Source: Propioniciclava sinopodophylli
GTDB lineage: Bacteria > Actinomycetota > Actinomycetes > Propionibacteriales > Propionibacteriaceae
DNA length: 64,000 nucleotides
Reading direction: 5' to 3'
NCBI RefSeq assembly: GCF_004324755.1
Contig: NZ_SDMQ01000002.1
Span: 248,001-312,000 of the forward strand
Made by a program: the position numbers and the translations under genes. The notes below the pieces were generated by a model. The model was not told where the DNA came from. It ran no database searches and was given only the letters and a program-made list of their open reading frames with translations. Positions 52,624 through 60,114 of this stretch are shown piece by piece (position 1 is the stretch's first letter; every line of letters starts with the position of its first letter).

Positions 52624-53466
52624 ATGACTGAAGAGACCAAGTCCGGCATCTCGCGCCGGACCCTGGCCAAGGGCGCAGCATGGAGCGTCCCGGCTGTTGC
52701 GGTTGCGGCAGCTGCGCCGGCCTACGCCAAGTCCAGCGGCGGGCCGACTGTCACCGTCCTCAGCGCCTGCAAGCAACCCGGCAACAGCTGCAACACCGGC
52801 AACCGGCCGTTCGGCTTTGTGAAGGGTTACACGTTCACAGTCGCCCTTTACAACCCGACCGGCGAGACGATCTACGTCTACACGTCGCAGCCCTCCACTC
52901 CCCCGGGGCCTTATCACCCACGATTCCAGGTGACCAGCGCGGTGCCTTTCTCGTACACCACTGCGCGTTACTTCACGCCCGGTCAGGTGCCTCCGGGCAG
53001 CGGCATCGGAGCTCCTGTGGGCGCTTATGTCACCCTTACCCCCGGCCAGACCGTTTACCTCATCATCAACGCGGGGGCCAACGACAACAGCGCCAACCAG
53101 TCGGCGTCCGGCTCGCTGTTCTTCGCCTGGGGGCACACGACTACCGCAGGCGCAGACGCGGAACACAGCTACACCCCGGTGCCGCCGCCGCTGGCGACCG
53201 CGGGTGAGGGGTGGGTAGGGGACTCGTTCACCTTCCCCGACATGCCGCCTTGCGACGATTGTGTCCCAGGCGTGCCCACGACGACGACCACCACCACGGT
53301 CGCATTGCGCCGGGCCGCAGAGACCGAAACGACGACTCAAGCGCCGGTCAAGACCGAGACCACCACCCAGGCGGTGATCGAGACCGAGACCACCACCCAG
53401 GCGGTGATCGAGACCGAGACCACCACCGAGGCCCCGGTCCAGACCGAGACGACCACTCAGGGCTGA
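52624..53466 (+). CDS. Tat-exported protein with Thr-rich C-terminal repeats
   Basis: 280 residues. The N-terminus GISRRTLAKGAAWSVPAVAV followed by AAAAPAYA is a clear twin-arginine signal with cleavage expected after AYA. The mature part is beta-rich, with two N-terminal Cys (CKQPGNSC) and a CDDC motif near residue 217. From about 222 it becomes TTTTTTT and then repeats such as AVIETETTTQ. There is no LPXTG or C-terminal membrane anchor. A possible promoter TTGCCC-19-TATGTT lies at 52551-52581. No family recognised. Two glycosyltransferase-like genes follow, so the Thr tail may be their target; that is inference. Confidence 0.82.
   Translation: MTEETKSGISRRTLAKGAAWSVPAVAVAAAAPAYAKSSGGPTVTVLSACKQPGNSCNTGNRPFGFVKGYTFTVALYNPTGETIYVYTSQPSTPPGPYHPRFQVTSAVPFSYTTARYFTPGQVPPGSGIGAPVGAYVTLTPGQTVYLIINAGANDNSANQSASGSLFFAWGHTTTAGADAEHSYTPVPPPLATAGEGWVGDSFTFPDMPPCDDCVPGVPTTTTTTTVALRRAAETETTTQAPVKTETTTQAVIETETTTQAVIETETTTEAPVQTETTTQG
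53330..53460 (+). repeat. 30-bp tandem repeats coding for the ETETTTQAVI tail
   Basis: The unit around GCGGTGATCGAGACCGAGAC plus CACCACCCAG is repeated almost exactly at about 53371 and 53401, with diverged copies on either side. It codes for the Thr-rich tail. Confidence 0.85.
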
Positions 53467-53484
53467 TCCCGCACAGCACGACCT

Positions 53485-53517
53485 AAGGGCCGGAGAAGTT
53501 CCACTTCTCCGGCCCTT
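53485..53517 (+). terminator. Strong hairpin after the Tat-exported protein gene
   Basis: AAGGGCCGGAGAAG, loop TTCCA, CTTCTCCGGCCCTT: a perfect 14-bp stem about 18 bases after the stop codon, before the glycosyltransferase genes. It should reduce read-through between them. Confidence 0.85.
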
Positions 53518-53556
53518 GGTTGCTCCCCCGCCCGCGTCGGCCGAAGGACGATCTCC

Positions 53557-54489
53557 TTGGAGTTCCTGATCCCCCTCCCCGACCACCCGTACTACCTCTG
53601 GCAGATGCTGGTCCAAACGACCCATCTCCGAGAGATGGGTTACGAGGAGAACACCCACTACCTCGTCGTGTACTTCGACGGTGCGCCAACCGAACAGCTC
53701 CGCACCTTCTTCGAGTCGGACGATCTTCGGTGCTACCTCCACGCCTATCCGGATACCCGGGAGGACAGGTCCTACGGCCCCTCGATGAAGCCGTGGCTCC
53801 TGGCGCAGTTCTTCGACCAGTTCCCCGAGGAGGGGCGCAAGGCCTTCAACTACCTCGACCCGGATGTCCTCTTCACCCGGCCGATGGACTTCTCGCCGTT
53901 CGAACGTGAAAACGGCTGCTGGTACGGCTCAGACACCGGCAGCTACACGAGCGCCTCCTACATCCGCAGCAAGGGCGAGCAGCTGTTCCTGGACCTGTGC
54001 CTCATCGCGGAGGTCGACCCTGACCTGGTGTTGGCCCACGACCACAACTCGATCGGGGCCCAGTACTTCATCAAGCAGACCGACGCGGAGTTCTGGAGGC
54101 ACGTAGAGCGGACCTCCGTCGCCGCCCACCGCCACATGGTCGAGACGGCCGAGCAGTACCACCCCGAGGGCCACGAGCACCCGATCCAAGCGTGGTGCGC
54201 TGAGATGTACATGCAGCAATTCGCGACCGTCCGTGCCGGCATCACGCCGATCGCCAGCCCGTTGATGGACTTCCACTGGGCGGACGCACCCGCGGACAAG
54301 TGGGCCGAGAAGGCTTACTTTCATAATGCCGGGCAGACGGCGGAGAACGGCGGGCATTTCAGCAAGACCACCTGGCAGGTATCCCCTTTCGGGAAGGACA
54401 TCCAGGTGTCTTCGACATCCGCTTCCTCGCGCTATGTGGAACTCATCAGGCGCACCGAAGACATCTTTCCCGACCTCATTTGGGAGTGA
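53557..54489 (+). CDS. Glycosyltransferase-like protein with a DxD motif
   Basis: 310-residue soluble protein. It opens EFLIPLPDHPYYLWQMLVQT, reminiscent of enzymes that track a sugar-nucleotide pocket, and carries KAFNYLDPDVLFTRPMDFS, with DPD at about 101-103 as a GT-A metal site. Later parts include DHNSIGAQYFIK and QAWCAEMYMQQFATVRAGI. The start is TTG 53557, the first codon of the recognisable domain; GAAGGA lies eight bases before it. Codons such as CAT, AAT and ATA are more frequent than in neighbours. I assign it to no numbered GT family; sugar and acceptor are unknown. The next gene begins one base after its stop. Confidence 0.65.
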   Translation: MEFLIPLPDHPYYLWQMLVQTTHLREMGYEENTHYLVVYFDGAPTEQLRTFFESDDLRCYLHAYPDTREDRSYGPSMKPWLLAQFFDQFPEEGRKAFNYLDPDVLFTRPMDFSPFERENGCWYGSDTGSYTSASYIRSKGEQLFLDLCLIAEVDPDLVLAHDHNSIGAQYFIKQTDAEFWRHVERTSVAAHRHMVETAEQYHPEGHEHPIQAWCAEMYMQQFATVRAGITPIASPLMDFHWADAPADKWAEKAYFHNAGQTAENGGHFSKTTWQVSPFGKDIQVSSTSASSRYVELIRRTEDIFPDLIWE

Positions 54490-54490
54490 T

Positions 54491-55585
54491 ATGGCCGACG
54501 ACGCCTTCGAACCGGATTATCATCGCATGGCCATACCCGCCGTGTCCGTACGTGATGCCTCCGGCGGCTTAGTGGGGCTATCAACGTTGGCCAAAGACCG
54601 AGCTTGCCTGCTGATCCTCCTGGAAGGGGCGAGCGAGCCGCCCATCGACATCACCGATATGATGGCGTGGCTCGACGACACGCCCCAGCTGCTCGTCCAC
54701 CCGATGGTGGCAACCACGAGCCGAGTGCCCTTGTTACCTCCCGAAGCACAGGCTCTGTGCCTCTTCGACCCCACGTGCGAAGCCAGGGACGCCCTCGGCC
54801 TGGATGGCACGGACGTGGGGGCGGTACTACTCGGCGTGGACGGGTTGCTCGCGGGCGGTCCCGTGACGGGCCGACACGAAGTCTTGGCCTTCGCAGCCGA
54901 GATCCGAAGTGCGTTGACGAGTGCCTTCGCCCCGCAGGGAGGTTTCCCCGACAGCCCGAGCGACCCGGCCTCCTCAATCGACCTGATCATCCCCTTCAGG
55001 GCAGCATCGCCGCAGCGGATGCGGAATCTGCTGTTCACCGTTTCCTACTACCGCTCACACCTGCCGCAGGCCCGCATCATCCTGGCGGAGGAGAACAACC
55101 GGACCACGCTGCCGATCGGGACTGCCGTCGACGAGCATCTTGTCGTAGAGGGCGATCCCGACCTGTTCAACAAGTCGCGTCTGCTGAATGCGGCGGCCGC
55201 CCTCTCCCACGCTCGTTACCTCGTCTTCGCCGACGCCGACTGCGTTCCGGAGGTCGCAACCCTTGCCACGCTGGAGGGCACACTGCGTTCGATCGGAAAC
55301 AGCTACTTGGTGCCGCACTCGGAGGTGCACTATCTCACGCATCGATCCAGCCTCGACATCATCAGGGAAGGGCGCGTGAACGATGGTTCCGTCGACGGTC
55401 TGGCACGCCACCAGATGGCCGTGACGGTGGGCGGCCTGACAGCATGCGCCGCCGAGTCGTTCGCCAAGATCGGCGGGTACGACCAACAGCGCTTCCTGGG
55501 GTGGGGCGCCGAAGACGACGATCTCTACAACCGGTTCTCGGTCTCAGAATTCGGTGTGTGGCGCACTGAGTATTCGGTCTTCTGA
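54491..55585 (+). pseudogene. 5' part of a redoxin-like/GT2 fusion gene, cut by IS21
   Basis: N-terminal 359 codons of a larger gene. Residues about 14-140 resemble a thioredoxin/redoxin fold without a clear CxxC (AVSVRDASGGLVGLSTLAKD, CLLILLEG). From about 162 a GT2 domain follows: IDLIIPFRAASPQRMRNLL, metal-binding DAD at 248-250, and GGYDQQRFLGWGAEDDDLYNR, the galactosyltransferase C-terminal motif. The element inserts inside the codon for T359; beyond it ten vector-like residues reach a stop. Two rare TTA codons (54569 and codon 82) suggest foreign origin. GGGAG precedes ATG 54491. Confidence 0.85.
55561..55566 (+). repeat. Target-site duplication, left copy
   Basis: GCGCAC immediately left of the IS21-family element, identical to 58153-58158. 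Confidence 0.9.
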
Positions 55586-55727
55586 GCGCCATCTGTATTG
55601 GGTTTGAGCGCCATGTGATGGTGGTCGCGTTCGCGTCCGTGGGCGCCACCGAGTATTCGGGGTGAGCGCCAGTTCCTAGGCTCCCCCTGCCGTGTGGCCA
55701 ATCACGCGGCAGGAGGAGTGATTTCGG

Positions 55728-57287
55728 ATGGTACGCAAGATCAGGGCGAAGCTGGTGCTTCGGCTCCGGGCCGAGGGGTTCTCGGGTCGGCAGATCGCCG
55801 CGCAGGGCATGTCCCGTCACAGCGTGGCGGCCGTCATCGAGGCCGCCGACCGGGAAGGCGTCGGCTGGGACGACATCGCCGATCTGGACGAGGTGGCCGT
55901 GTATGCGCGGTTGTTCCCTGGCCGGGGTGAACACGAGAGCGTCCACGCCCAACCCGACTGGCCGGTGGTGCATCGTGAGCTCGCGCGGGTGGGGGTGACG
56001 TTGAAGCTGCTCCACGGCGAGTACGTCGACCGGTGCCACGCCGAGGGGTCGACGGCGATGGGATATGACCGGTTCTGCAAGAACTACTCCCAGCACGTGC
56101 TGGTCGCGGGGGCGGCCTCACGGGTCAGTCACAAGGCCGGTCAGAGCGTCGAGGTGGACTGGTCGGGGCCGACGATGTCGTTGACCGACCCGGTGTCGGG
56201 GCAGGGCCGGCGGGTGTTCTTGTTCGTGGGTGCCCTGCCCTTTTCGCGGTACGCGTTCGTCGAGCCAACCCTGGACATGCGGCAGGACACGTGGCTGCGG
56301 GCGCACGCGACGATGTTCGCCTGGTTCGGTGGCAGTGTGCCGCGGATCGTGCCAGACAACCTGAAGACCGGCGTCATCAAGCATCCCGCCGAGGGGGAGG
56401 TCGTCCTCAACGACGCCTACCGGGAGTTGGCCGCGCACTACTCGGCAGCGGTGCTGCCCGGCCGGGTCCGCAAACCGAAGGACAAGGCCAGTGTCGAGAA
56501 CACCGTCGGGAACATCGCGACGTGGGTGATCGCCGGCCTGCGGGACCGCCGGTTCGCGACGCTGGCCGAGTTGCGGGCAGCCATCTACGAACGGGTGGAG
56601 GCGTACAACGCCGAACCGTTCCAGAAGCGCCCGGGGTCCCGGCAGGCTGTGTTCGAGGTCGAGGAGAAGCCGCTGCTGCGGCCGCTGCCGACGGTTCCGT
56701 TCGAGATCAGCCGGTGGACGTACGGACGACGGGTGCAGCGCAACGGACACGTGGTGTGGGAGAAGAACTTCTACTCCGTCCCGTACGCGCACATCGGCCG
56801 CAGTGTCGACCTGCGCGTCACCGACACCACCTTGGAGGTGTACGCCGGCCAGCAACGCTTGACCAGCCACCTGCTCGCCCCGCCCGGGGTGGTCAACGAG
56901 TACCGCACCCACGACGCCGACCTGCCCGAGGGGCCCCGCTATCGGCAGTGGGACGCCGCGAGGGTCCGGGAATGGGCGGGTCGGGTCGGGGAGCACGCCC
57001 TCACCGTCGTCAACCGGATCTTCGAGTCCGTACCGGTGGACGAGCAGGGCCTGGATGCCGCGTTGGCCGTGCTGCGCCTCACGCAGCGTTACTCGGCGGC
57101 CCGCGTGGATGCCGCCTGCCGGATCGCGTTGACGCGGGTCCGGTCGCCCCGCTACGCGCACCTGCGCCCGATCCTCGACAGCGGCCAGGACCAGCCCGGT
57201 TGGGGCCGACCAGACCCTGAGACGGCCGGCCCCTTTGCGTCGGCCGGGTACGTGCGTGGCGCCGACTACTACGGGGGTGCCCAGTGA
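55728..57287 (+). CDS. istA: IS21-family transposase IstA
   Basis: 519-residue DDE transposase. N-terminal helix-turn-helix (RAEGFSGRQIAAQGMSRHSVAAVIEAA) precedes a catalytic domain with D in QSVEVDWSGPT, D in RIVPDNLKTGV and E in PKDKASVENTVGN. Its C-terminal part has the Mu-B-type beta barrel region (VVWEKNFYSVPYAHIG). GGAGGAG lies eight bases upstream of ATG. It overlaps istB by four bases. Confidence 0.96.
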   Translation: MVRKIRAKLVLRLRAEGFSGRQIAAQGMSRHSVAAVIEAADREGVGWDDIADLDEVAVYARLFPGRGEHESVHAQPDWPVVHRELARVGVTLKLLHGEYVDRCHAEGSTAMGYDRFCKNYSQHVLVAGAASRVSHKAGQSVEVDWSGPTMSLTDPVSGQGRRVFLFVGALPFSRYAFVEPTLDMRQDTWLRAHATMFAWFGGSVPRIVPDNLKTGVIKHPAEGEVVLNDAYRELAAHYSAAVLPGRVRKPKDKASVENTVGNIATWVIAGLRDRRFATLAELRAAIYERVEAYNAEPFQKRPGSRQAVFEVEEKPLLRPLPTVPFEISRWTYGRRVQRNGHVVWEKNFYSVPYAHIGRSVDLRVTDTTLEVYAGQQRLTSHLLAPPGVVNEYRTHDADLPEGPRYRQWDAARVREWAGRVGEHALTVVNRIFESVPVDEQGLDAALAVLRLTQRYSAARVDAACRIALTRVRSPRYAHLRPILDSGQDQPGWGRPDPETAGPFASAGYVRGADYYGGAQ

Positions 57288-58030
57288 CGCGGATCGACAC
57301 CGAGACCAAACGCAAGCTCCGCGAGATGGGCGTACCCGCCCTGATCGACGCCCTCGAAACCCAGGACGACACGCTCACAATGGGGATGTCGTTCGAGGAA
57401 CGGATCAAGCTGGTCGTCAACGACGCCCACGCCACGTTCACCCACGCAAAGGTCGAAGGACTGATCCGCCGCGCGGGACTGCGGTACCCGAACGCGGACC
57501 TGCGCCGCCTCGACCTGGTCGAGCAACGCGGCCTCGACCGAGGGGTGATCGCCCAGCTGGGGACCTGCACGTTCATCGCCAGGCAGCAGAACGTCGTGTT
57601 CCAAGGCTTCACCGGATCCGGCAAGTCCTACCTCGGTTCAGCGTTGGCCAAGCAAGCCTGCGCGCACCGCTACCGGGCCCACTACATCCGCATGCCCGAC
57701 CTCGAGGAGTCCTGGGCCGCGGCCCGTGACAGGCCCGCCGGGAAGGAGAAGTGGCTCCGCAAGTACGCCGCGTTCACCCTGCTGGTCATCGACGAGTGGC
57801 TCCTCGATCGACCCGACGATCAGGTCCGCAGCATGCTCCTGGAGTTGCTCGAGCGCCGCTACGACGCTACGTCGACCGTGTTCTGCACCCAGTACCCGAA
57901 GAAGGACTGGCACCAACGGCTCGGCTCCGGTGTCCACGCCGACGCGATCATGGACCGCATCGTGCACAACACCATCTGGATCGAGACCGGCGGCACCAAC
58001 ATGCGCGAACACGTCGCCAGCACGGCCTGA
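57284..58030 (+). CDS. istB: IS21-family helper ATPase IstB
   Basis: 248-residue DnaC-like AAA+ ATPase that directs IstA to target DNA. Walker A is GFTGSGKSYLG (about 107-117) and Walker B is FTLLVIDEWLLD; sensor segment VFCTQYPKKDWHQRLG and a C-terminal ETGGTNMREH follow. GTG start overlapping the istA stop. Confidence 0.96.
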   Translation: MTRIDTETKRKLREMGVPALIDALETQDDTLTMGMSFEERIKLVVNDAHATFTHAKVEGLIRRAGLRYPNADLRRLDLVEQRGLDRGVIAQLGTCTFIARQQNVVFQGFTGSGKSYLGSALAKQACAHRYRAHYIRMPDLEESWAAARDRPAGKEKWLRKYAAFTLLVIDEWLLDRPDDQVRSMLLELLERRYDATSTVFCTQYPKKDWHQRLGSGVHADAIMDRIVHNTIWIETGGTNMREHVASTA

Positions 58031-58152
58031 CCCAGAGTCGGTGAGCGCCACCGGCACCACGGCGCTCACCGACGCCGCCAAGCGGCGCTGAAACTGAATA
58101 TCGACTGTGCCCTACCCCGATACCCAGCGGCGCTCAACCGGGCAAATACTCA

Positions 58153-58158
58153 GCGCAC
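58153..58158 (+). repeat. Target-site duplication, right copy
   Basis: GCGCAC immediately right of the IS21-family element. Confidence 0.9.
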
Positions 58159-59072
58159 GGACGGCAACCTCCTCCACCTCGACCACCCGGGCAACGTGTG
58201 GCACGAATTCACCGCCGCCGAGGTGGATACGAAACGCGCAGCCATCCCCCGCCCCAGCATCCCCTCGGTGGCCATCAGGCGAAAGCAGCTCGCCGACTGG
58301 TTCCGGGATCGCAGGGTGCGTCTGGCGACGAATACCCAGAACGAGGCACTCCTCAGGCGATCTCGCCTGTTCTCCGAGCCCGCCTTCCCCCAGTTCCACC
58401 GCGTCGATGGCAGTTTTGGAGCATACGGGCTGCCAGTTTTTCGGGAACTCCTCGGCGCAGGCCTCGAGGGATCATGGGACTACCTCCTGTACACCGATGA
58501 GGACAACTTCATCGTCGACTGGCCAGAAGTTCAGGCGGCCTTTGACGCGTTCGTCAGCGGGGGCTTCGGCTTCGCCGGAATGCCGGACGGCGGCGTCGTC
58601 AGCCATCGATTCCACAATCCGATCGCGATCAATCCCTTCATGGCATTCTTCGACCTGCGCCAGACACGTCACGCGCTCCACAAGTCGGAGGAGTCCTCAG
58701 ATCGCTTTGGCCCCGACCTCATTCAGCACTGGCCCGCCTCGTTGATCAAGCAATGGGACGGGAATCTTCCCCACCGTCGGATCCGAGTCGTAGTCGAAGA
58801 AGGATTCGTACCGTACGGTACGGCGCTGGATGACTTCGAGCCCTACTACTCCCTGTGTCGAACTCCTCCGCAAGGGCTTGGAGCCGATGTACTTGGATGC
58901 GCGTGATGCGCCCGAGATGGACGACGATGGCGCCTGCACCGCGTTGCTGGGTCCATCGGGACGCGTGATGGCCTATCACACGTGGTTCGCGCGTGGCTAC
59001 GGCCATGACCGCGAGCACACGATCAGGATCAACAAGACTTCCCAGCGAGCACGCAGCCACCTGCGATCGTGA
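58159..59072 (+). pseudogene. 3' part of the split glycosyltransferase gene, also frameshifted
   Basis: Continuation of the gene at 54491. Joining ...GVWR at 55566 to base 58159 gives the codon ACG and the in-frame sequence TDGNLLHLDHPGNVWHEF, where LHLDHP is the normal follow-up to the GWGAEDDDLY motif. A second domain then follows, with WDYLLYTDEDNFIVDWPEVQ and FGFAGMPDGGV. At about 58851 (CCC) the frame shifts: the original frame ends at 58906, while the +1 frame continues naturally as CVELLRKGLEPMYLDARDAP to GRVMAYHTWFARGYGHDREH and a stop at 59072. A one-base insertion there explains both. Confidence 0.8.
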
Positions 59073-59074
59073 CT

Positions 59075-59089
59075 TGAGAATGATTCTCA
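59075..59089 (+). promoter_or_regulatory. Zur-like operator of the zinc transport operon
   Basis: TGAGAATGATTCTCA is a perfect 7-1-7 palindrome closely matching the TGAAAATGATTTTCA-type zinc-uptake regulator boxes of actinobacteria. It overlaps the -35 region of the znuA promoter, as expected for repression when zinc is plentiful. Confidence 0.88.
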
Positions 59090-59097
59090 CTATGCTC

Positions 59098-59103
59098 TAT
59101 TGT
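59098..59103 (+). promoter_or_regulatory. -10 box, leaderless promoter of znuA
   Basis: TATTGT is preceded at an 18-base distance by TTGAGA (59074-59079) and followed by six bases and GTG 59110. Confidence 0.55.
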
Positions 59104-59109
59104 CGAGCT

Positions 59110-60114
59110 GTGCGTTCGACCATCCTCGCGATTCTGTTCCTGCTGACCCTCGCCGCGTGCAGCCCGACCGGGCCTGCGGCGTCCCCGCCTGGCGCCCCCT
59201 CGAGGGGTGATGGCCCGGTGGCCATCGCGACCACGACGCAGCTTGGGTCGATCCTGACCGACATCACGGCGTGCGCGGGCACCACGTCAGCCACCCTGAT
59301 GGGCGCGGGCGACGACCCACACGAGTTCTCGGTGTCGTCACGCGACGTGGCCAACCTCACGAAGACGAAGCTTGTCGTCGCCAACGGCCTGGGGCTCGAA
59401 TCAGGCCTGGAGGTTGCCCTCGACGGCGCCCAGGGTGACGGCGCGACGATCTTCGAGGTCGCTCCCCTGCTCGAGCCGCTGACCTATGCCGACATCGAGG
59501 CCAAGGCGGCCGAGCAGCACGCCGGGCACGACCACGCGCACGACGACCACGCTGATGAGGGCCACGACGACGGGCACAACCACGGCGAGTTCGACCCGCA
59601 CGTGCACATGGATGTGAAGCGCATGGCCAAGGCCGCCTCCCTCATCGGCGCCGAGCTGGCGAAGGTCATCGGCGACGACAAGTACGCCACCTGCGGCACC
59701 GAGGTCGAGACCAAGCTCAACCAGACGGACGCCGAGGTGCGGGACATCCTGAGCGCCGTCCCCACCGAGAGGCGCGTCCTCGTCACCGACCACGAGGCCT
59801 ACAACTACTTCGCGGCGGCCTACGACTTCGAGGTGGCCGGGGTGGTCATCCCGGGCGGGTCGACCGACGCCGAGCCCAGCTCCCAGGAGCTGGCCGACCT
59901 GGTCGCGGTCGTCCGCGAGGACAAGGTGTCCGCAATCTTCTCCAACAACACCGTTAACCCGCGTCTGGTCGAGGCCGTCGCCGCCGAGGCGGGCACCGAC
60001 CTGAAGGTCGTCCAGCTGTTCGAGGGCTCCGTGGGCCCGGCCGGCTCGGGCGCCGAGACGTACTCCGACATGATGCTCACCAACGCCCGGCTCATCGCCG
60101 ACGCCCTGAAGTAG
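59110..60114 (+). CDS. znuA: Zinc ABC transporter substrate-binding lipoprotein
   Basis: 334-residue cluster A-I metal-binding protein. The signal peptide ends with the lipobox LTLAAC (Cys about 17), so it is membrane-tethered outside the cell. Metal-binding histidines are DDPHEFSVSSRD and, after a mobile His/Asp-rich loop (EQHAGHDHAHDDHADEGHDD to NHGEFDPHVHMD), HVHMD and TDHEAYNYFAAAY. The His-rich loop between domains is typical of zinc rather than manganese proteins. GTG 59110 is chosen: it follows the Zur box and starts the signal peptide; an upstream in-frame extension crosses the operator. Confidence 0.93.
   Translation: MRSTILAILFLLTLAACSPTGPAASPPGAPSRGDGPVAIATTTQLGSILTDITACAGTTSATLMGAGDDPHEFSVSSRDVANLTKTKLVVANGLGLESGLEVALDGAQGDGATIFEVAPLLEPLTYADIEAKAAEQHAGHDHAHDDHADEGHDDGHNHGEFDPHVHMDVKRMAKAASLIGAELAKVIGDDKYATCGTEVETKLNQTDAEVRDILSAVPTERRVLVTDHEAYNYFAAAYDFEVAGVVIPGGSTDAEPSSQELADLVAVVREDKVSAIFSNNTVNPRLVEAVAAEAGTDLKVVQLFEGSVGPAGSGAETYSDMMLTNARLIADALK

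Follow-up and report, generated by a model that had tools for sequence, protein, structure and literature searches.

A threonine-tailed Tat-leader protein and a GT8-like enzyme of a phage family encoded side by side in Propioniciclava sinopodophylli: a candidate pair for glycosylation before export

Can a bacterial protein be given its sugars in the cytoplasm and then leave through the twin-arginine translocation (Tat) pathway, which accepts folded cargo? The question is raised by three + strand genes, here called P1, P2 and P3, in a stretch of 64,000 nucleotides (nt) of Propioniciclava sinopodophylli DNA (the window; contig NZ_SDMQ01000002.1, positions 248,001 to 312,000), which belongs to a genome of 3.07 Mb. 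The three genes have as neighbours, labelled by eye, an ABC transporter/MarR pair on one side and a znuA-like gene on the other. An earlier inspection of the letters alone (the sequence-only reading) had seen a Tat-exported, threonine-rich protein followed by two glycosyltransferase-like genes, the second broken, and had proposed that the tail is glycosylated before export. Our analysis makes it probable that P1 and P2 are substrate and enzyme, with P2 O-glycosylating the threonine tail of P1 in the cytoplasm ahead of Tat export. The features of this pair are listed here (aa, amino acids; ORF, open reading frame).

52624..53466, + strand: P1, Tat-leader secreted protein of 280 aa, the proposed glycosylation substrate (ORF; leader seen by eye; homologues of the body among Tat proteins of genomes G005 and G053).
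52624..52731, + strand: twin-arginine leader of P1, MTEETKSGISRRTLAKGAAWSVPAVAVAAAAPAYAK (sequence; RRxxxKGAAW motif in 19 proteins; TatC encoded).
53278..53463, + strand: Thr-rich tail of P1, TTTTTTTVALRRAAE plus five TETTT repeats (sequence; 11 Thr per 20 aa).
53485..53517, + strand: hairpin between P1 and P2, 15-bp stem (fold z -4.5).
53557..54489, + strand: P2, phrog_4417 family, predicted GT8-like GT-A glycosyltransferase of 310 aa (profile, predicted fold).

The N-terminus of P1, MTEETKSGISRRTLAKGAAWSVPAVAVAAAAPAYA, was recognized by eye as a twin-arginine leader with the features of a Tat substrate (RR motif, hydrophobic stretch, AxA site), and TatC is encoded in the genome; the NCBIfam model formate_TAT reached P1 at E 0.01 only, below its cut-off. 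The Thr-rich repeat tail noticed in the sequence-only reading is present and comprises 62 residues at the C-terminus, with a seven-Thr run (TTTTTTT, like the IS21 element and the hairpin a feature beyond that reading) followed by five TETTT repeats; the repeat had been given there as ETETTTQAVI, of which TETTTQAVI occurs twice and the full ten letters once only.

P2, described earlier as DxD glycosyltransferase-like, belongs over its full length to phrog_4417 (E 1.8e-54, residues 1-301 on positions 1-292 of the 293 of the profile), a phage family listed in PHROGs as of unknown function, one record naming a member 'prophage pi2 protein 34'. Pfam gave no family at E 1, and hence no GT8 profile, NCBIfam gave no match, and 16 P2 relatives searched against Pfam matched five families, none a transferase. 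PDB sequence searches with P2 and with the P2 alignment yielded no convincing match; the TAL-effector repeats in the top rows for the alignment were taken as chance. An AlphaFold model built from 32 sequences (pLDDT 94.2, pTM 0.92) has a GT-A fold. Structural comparison by VIA-align gave glycogenin (Z 14.7, rmsd 3.4, 222 residues) and LgtC (Z 14.4, rmsd 3.7, 240 residues), with GlyE, LARGE1 and UGGT in the next rows, and Foldseek gave 212 matches at E ≤0.001, ranked by E-value with blood-group transferases and glycogenin first. By this model the fold of P2 is GT-A and closest to GT8 glycogenin and LgtC, a common fold that does not prove family membership. The DxD, at residues 101-103, is invariant across the 32 aligned sequences (D101, D103), as are H256, G259 and K270, and P2 has the DxD, GAQ, QxWxAEM and HxxG...K pattern in common with its phrog_4417 relatives. 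In such enzymes a DxD and a late His bind the metal, as they would in P2; a presumed likeness to plant hydroxyproline arabinosyltransferases (GT95) is neither supported nor excluded, no GT95 being among the matches listed. No leader or membrane segment was seen in P2 by eye.

Relatives covering at least 80% of P2 were found in 74 phage records, and P2 relatives occur in 458 viral contigs and 8 plasmid records (7 Enterococcus, 1 Rhizosphaericola; DA9, the single Enterococcus plasmid record opened, has phage structural genes). Cellular copies are rare: 3 of 198 genomes of the family, 3 of 391 of the order (overlapping sets), 1 of 364 of the class and 1 of 396 of the phylum, own genome included in the counts. 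A pattern scan of 84,980 species genomes, which detects close relatives only, returned two records, a contig of the congener G008 and the genome of Phycicoccus elongatus Lp2. The P2 frame is intact and is 62-73% identical to three other actinobacterial copies (62% in Phycicoccus elongatus Lp2).

The co-occurrence that the sequence-only reading had set as a test was found in all four actinobacterial loci, each having a Thr-rich stretch in the gene immediately upstream of P2, with a Tat leader in the three whose 5' end is visible. In G026 the upstream gene has a Tat leader and an (APTTTV)n tail; the G008 contig begins inside the upstream gene, the last 55 codons of which encode PGTTTSTTTAQPQAQEEVTTTTTTVEVTTTTTTAAATTEAAPAEAAPAETTGADA; and in Phycicoccus a Tat leader and ITTTTTTLPP are followed by a frame change at an eight-C run and an S/T/P/E-rich end. 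The eight-C frame change after the Thr run (about 6830-6870 of L039, Phycicoccus elongatus Lp2) may come from an error in sequencing or mark a phase-variable tract. With Thr-rich partners in four loci out of four, we rejected the idea that P1 and P2 adjoin by chance. A hairpin is predicted between the Thr-tail gene and P2 in all four loci (z -4.5 in the window, -4.9, -6.3 and -2.2 in the others, 5 of 200 shuffles being equally stable for the weakest), and a pattern scan found no U-tract terminator between P1 and P2. The hairpin is a possible attenuator or mRNA stabilizer; that it tunes how much enzyme is made relative to substrate is a guess.

The tail goes with the enzyme among Tat proteins also. 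The leader RRxxxKGAAW was found in 19 proteins of 16 of the 197 family genomes; the maximum of Thr per 20 residues is 11 in both P2-adjacent members (own and G026) and 5-8 in the other 17, so that the Thr tail is missing from 17 of 17 Tat proteins without P2. In G005, a congener, a homologue of the P1 body (26% identity across 175 residues, E 5e-7) ends where the P1 tail begins, and a second is found in G053 (31% identity, E 1e-4). At the slot next to znuA, for which matches were obtained in 12 of 13 genus genomes (none in G006), G005, G007 and G011 have a Tat protein with neither Thr tail nor P2 (G011 is 72% complete; its Tat gene and znuA adjoin on one contig). No Tat protein was seen within 1.5 kb of znuA in G001, G002, G003, G004, G009, G010 and G012, among which the leader pattern matched in G009 only, away from znuA.

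The same contrast recurs in two phage gene families. Among 71 loci of capsid family A, 56 have tail and enzyme, 2 the tail alone and 13 neither; in the two tail-alone loci the contig ends 87 nt downstream, where the enzyme could not be visible, and for L202, one of the 13, only 68 nt are shown downstream. Major-tail family C (29 loci) has both in 3 loci and neither in 26, three of the latter being 81-91% identical to a tailed one. Of 20 loci of family B, 18 have tail and enzyme, one has 8 Thr (cut-off 9) and one a frame change, both with the enzyme; the family has no enzyme-free member and gives no contrast. In enzyme-free loci the genes otherwise downstream of the enzyme directly follow the capsid or tail gene with order unchanged; in L239 two other small ORFs occupy the enzyme position.

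For a wider viral survey the best 80 of the 458 viral P2 relatives were used, and their enzymes were clustered at string similarity >0.85, since many are near-identical prophages. A tail (at least 9 Thr in 20 residues, within the last 80 residues of an ORF on the enzyme strand) was found in 57 of the 80 loci, 46 of these having the tailed ORF within 700 nt upstream of the enzyme; on the opposite strand there was none. With a run test (at least 7 Thr in 9 aa) 61 of 80 loci were positive, comprising 84 ORFs, all on the P2 strand. Such a run occurs in at least one member of 22 of 24 enzyme clusters vs 0 of 36 control loci, the controls being enzyme-free loci of families A and C; family A contributed 10 of its 13 tail-less loci, with L197 (884 nt downstream of the capsid gene), L202 (68 nt) and L222 (5'-truncated) omitted. 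When 2-9 neighbours each were translated from named records, 11 of 12 loci proved to encode a stretch with 6 Thr in 9 residues, in proteins annotated as capsid, major tail, structural or hypothetical (e.g. phiFL1A, iLp84, 1706, SA2, DA9 prophage), and the twelfth locus, 521B, has an APTTV-repeat tail instead. By eye the tails of LP65 structural proteins (TTTETQTQTQ repeats) are most like that of P1, and several phages have Thr tails on two or more virion proteins of the one genome. In L073, L076, L077, L079, L080 and L119, contigs of which most belong to the relatives closest to P2, the Thr runs lie inside large proteins as linkers and not at the C-terminus as tails. L074 (1949-5930) encodes a poly-Thr-tailed protein, three more genes (two glycosyltransferase-like by eye) and then the P2 relative, an arrangement that may be an extended glycan cassette.

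Because of the enzyme family, the transferase fold and the joint presence of tail and enzyme on unrelated proteins, the Thr tail is the likely substrate. P2 would be a soluble, metal-dependent GT-A enzyme, GT8-like, probably retaining and using a UDP-sugar, that glycosylates threonines in the low-complexity P1 tail. Given that virion proteins assemble in the cytoplasm and that no leader was seen in P2 by eye, the reaction is most likely cytoplasmic. The decorated P1 would then cross the membrane as a finished protein, for which Tat is a fitting route. In phages the phrog_4417 enzymes would modify the Thr tails of virion proteins, those of capsid and tail among them, ahead of release. The proposal of cytoplasmic glycosylation before Tat export thereby gains a phage enzyme family that tracks virion Thr tails, as fits cytoplasmic modification, while its glycan is still inferred.

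Several points weigh against this pairing of substrate and enzyme. Besides the glycan, the activity of P2 and the export of P1 are what we infer; no more than four actinobacterial pairs were found, in a small share of genomes (3 of 198 family and 1 of 364 class genomes); and the 71- and 29-locus families consist of closely related prophages, whose counts are not independent. There was no Thr run in the available stretch of 19 of the 80 enzyme loci, including all 7 loci of two clusters, nor in the 6 neighbours checked of the P2 relative on the Rhizosphaericola plasmid. In the reverse direction, a scan of viral contigs for (ACN)8 gave at least 80 loci (1.3-15 kb); of 80 listed, 47 had a long ORF with a true Thr run, and in the stretch available around it 40 of these 47 had no P2 relative and 7 had one. 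Thr runs also occur without P2, so the tail alone does not demand the P2 enzyme. Of 110 neighbouring ORFs in the 40 loci 91 were profiled, 19 having been dropped by hand (many opposite-strand or crowded-frame); other transferase families found near P2-free Thr runs were PF11397, GT25 and TOD1_MUCI70, with one protein each (among 25 of 38 Pfam families), and the PHROGs families were mostly structural, lysis or replication (among 25 of 112). The P1-body homologue of G053, which lacks P2, has a tail of other composition (EATSSQPAEP repeats) and a GT2 gene nearby, so tails are not exclusive to P2 loci. Finally, the genome has one PMT-family O-mannosyltransferase (E 1.9e-15, on another contig), which could act on the same tail; the Pfam PMT profile matched neither P2 nor P3.

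The Thr runs of the 40 loci also suit an alternative in which P2 acts on a small molecule, a lipid or a cell-surface glycan and the tail is a spacer, the two being linked by a common site at the cell surface or virion: GT8-like folds are found in LgtC and other enzymes that build glycans, and Thr/Pro-rich stretches can serve as spacers. We regard this as unlikely, given that tail and enzyme are present or absent together on homologous capsid, tail and Tat proteins and that several phages tail more than one virion protein, which an enzyme for surface glycans would not need. The PMT (GT39) of the genome might instead O-mannosylate the P1 tail during export, with P2 only elongating the mannose or being unrelated. 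This alternative can draw, besides the gene itself, on PMC11727336, which reports O-mannosylation of a Tat-secreted protein and softens the contrast with Sec-coupled actinobacterial mannosylation drawn in the sequence-only reading. It is nevertheless improbable: phages too pair P2 relatives with tails, the PMT gene is on a different contig from P1 and P2, and the 17 Tat proteins without P2 also lack a Thr tail (PMT not surveyed in those genomes). PMT is, moreover, a membrane enzyme, and by eye P2 has neither leader nor membrane segment.

If P1 and P2 are substrate and enzyme, what does P3 add? Its features and those of its surroundings are as follows.

54491..54940, + strand: N-terminal domain of P3, related to the C-terminal domain (thioredoxin-like by eye) of MauE-type proteins, Cys pair lost (homology).
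54980..55566, + strand: P3 second domain, GT2/beta-1,4-galactosyltransferase type (Glyco_transf_7C), shortened by the insertion sequence (IS) (Pfam, PHROGs).
55561..55566, no strand: left target-site duplication GCGCAC (sequence).
55567..58152, + strand: IS21-family insertion sequence within P3 (terminal inverted repeats, GCGCAC duplication, NCBIfam/Pfam).
55728..57287, + strand: istA transposase (transpos_IS21, E 3.8e-66).
57284..58030, + strand: istB helper ATPase (IstB_IS21, E 6e-42).
58153..58158, no strand: right target-site duplication GCGCAC (sequence).
58153..59072, + strand: P3 third domain, putative glycosyltransferase (YTDEDNF, by eye; viral relative L277).
ORF to 58906 and ORF 58830-59072, + strand: P3 third domain as split by a frame change near 58,850.
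59080..60114, + strand: flanking metal ABC transporter binding protein, znuA-like (by eye), which marks the syntenic slot (matches in 12/13 genus genomes).

P3, which starts at 54491, is broken as the sequence-only reading had it. An IS21 element of 2586 bp with istA, istB and terminal inverted repeats lies within it, flanked on both sides by the 6-bp GCGCAC duplication, in the short target duplication range of IS21 elements, and a second disruption is the frame change near 58,850 (by eye). The first 150 residues, called redoxin-like earlier, match the C-terminal domain of MauE-type membrane proteins, and no redoxin profile matched: with P3 as query, matches were obtained in 36 of 197 family genomes, nearly all in the N-domain, and the three N-domain relatives checked have a MauE Pfam match. 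P3 has GASEPP where 9 of 9 aligned relatives have a pair of Cys, and a working redox centre was rejected on this ground. The genome also has a MauE-type paralogue of this domain of its own outside the window (L032 8118-9650, G000:C22). The galactosyltransferase-type domain was confirmed (Glyco_transf_7C, E 4.5e-12, 45.9 bits vs a cut-off of 23) and also matches phrog_1721, phrog_15655 (E 6.3e-8) and beta4GalT chains (best E 7.6e-6). A Bacteroidota plasmid protein is a fusion of phrog_4417 and a phrog_15655 transferase domain, which suggests that P2-type and P3-type transferases act on one glycan. The second glycosyltransferase-like domain of the earlier description keeps a single viral relative, L277 (a 134-kb viral contig, E 8e-18); no profile matched at E ≤0.001 (Pfam, NCBIfam, PHROGs), no relatives were found in plasmids and only the own copy among 197 family genomes, and a structure model from two sequences was not usable (pLDDT 38).

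P3 would have lengthened or branched the glycan with its galactosyltransferase-type domain and the third, transferase-like domain, and with its disruption by IS21 and frame change a shorter glycan would be expected in this strain. In the other three actinobacterial loci P3 does not stand beside P2, so it is not part of the conserved core, which is P1 and P2 only; of the three-gene system first proposed, the P1-P2 pairing is what recurs. P2 is directly followed by znuA in G008 and by an unrelated opposite-strand gene in Phycicoccus. In G026 an IS21-type istA/istB pair (by eye; L006 6452-8877) lies directly downstream of the P2 homologue, at the position that P3 has in the window.

The broken P3 and the phage family of P2 could also mark a decayed prophage or phage-derived remnant that has no present function. 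This we consider very improbable: P1 has a Tat leader, the P2 frame is intact and 62-73% identical in three other actinobacterial loci, and the genes occupy a chromosomal slot between the ABC-transporter/MarR genes and znuA, with no phage genes seen by eye in the flanks read.

Other genes recur around Tat-leader genes (labels partly from Pfam, the rest by eye). PqqD-like proteins and low-molecular-weight phosphatases were found in varying sets in L267 (G053), L268 (G015) and L039 (Phycicoccus), MauE-type genes in L267 and L268 and a nucleotidyltransferase in L039. In G053 the GT2 gene near the Tat protein with the EATSSQPAEP tail adjoins the MauE gene; this GT2 (L267) has no detectable relationship to P3 (E 0.23). 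In G007 a 103-aa ORF rich in Thr, Glu, Pro and Ser lies between the Tat protein and znuA (L271 5313-5624).

Taken beyond the single locus, the pairing of P1 and P2 leads to a tentative generalization, which may well not hold: that phrog_4417 and the poly-Thr tail form a portable 'glyco-tag' cassette, gained and lost together, grafted by phages onto unrelated virion proteins and by actinobacteria onto Tat proteins, and that Tat-coupled cytoplasmic O-glycosylation is a distinct route of protein secretion and modification that was probably taken over from phages. The phrog_4417 family, listed without a function and present in hundreds of viral contigs, is hereby given a testable one, and the poly-Thr tail becomes a sequence tag predicting which virion proteins may be modified. 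If the reading is true, sugars are added before Tat export, and the question of pre-glycosylated Tat cargo can be tested with two small genes. A short tail and one soluble enzyme could also serve as a tool for protein glycosylation in bacteria.

Among known systems, the phage members of phrog_4417 are nearest to P2 in profile, motifs and Thr-rich neighbours, and differ in their partners, which are virion proteins in phages and Tat-leader or Thr-tailed cell proteins in actinobacteria. Freeman et al. 2023 reportedly described virion glycosylation in mycobacteriophages Che8 and Rita and proposed phage transferases. PMC11256854 reports glycans on capsid proteins in mycobacteriophages; those of Che8 and Rita are reportedly on major capsid proteins, and the parallel with the phage members of phrog_4417 would lie in such glycans and in the proposed transferases. 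In the open-access literature no paper was found that ties Thr tails to the phrog_4417 family, most subscription papers being outside the search. The GT8-like enzymes glycogenin, LgtC, pneumococcal GlyE and UGGT are alike in fold (Z 14.7, 14.4, 13.7 and 13.6; rmsd 3.4-4.3 over 215-245 residues) and in the DxD and late His, but P2 is only 7-11% identical to them and has no Pfam transferase match or convincing PDB sequence match. The nearest host system is actinobacterial O-mannosylation, the PMT (GT39) of which is a membrane enzyme with a lipid-linked donor. Exported actinobacterial proteins are modified there too, and according to PMC11727336 this can include Tat cargo. P2, in contrast to PMT, is predicted to be a soluble GT-A enzyme and is encoded beside its putative substrate. 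Serine-rich repeat adhesins are glycosylated in the cytoplasm (Gtf enzymes, GlyE) before export by accessory Sec, and P1-P2 resembles them in the low-complexity Ser/Thr substrate, the adjacent soluble transferases and the modification before export, the last as proposed here. The differences are that P1 would use Tat and not accessory Sec and has a tail of tens of residues, not long Ser repeats. By this analogy P1-P2 would be a variant of already known cytoplasmic protein glycosylation, from which it would differ in the Tat route.

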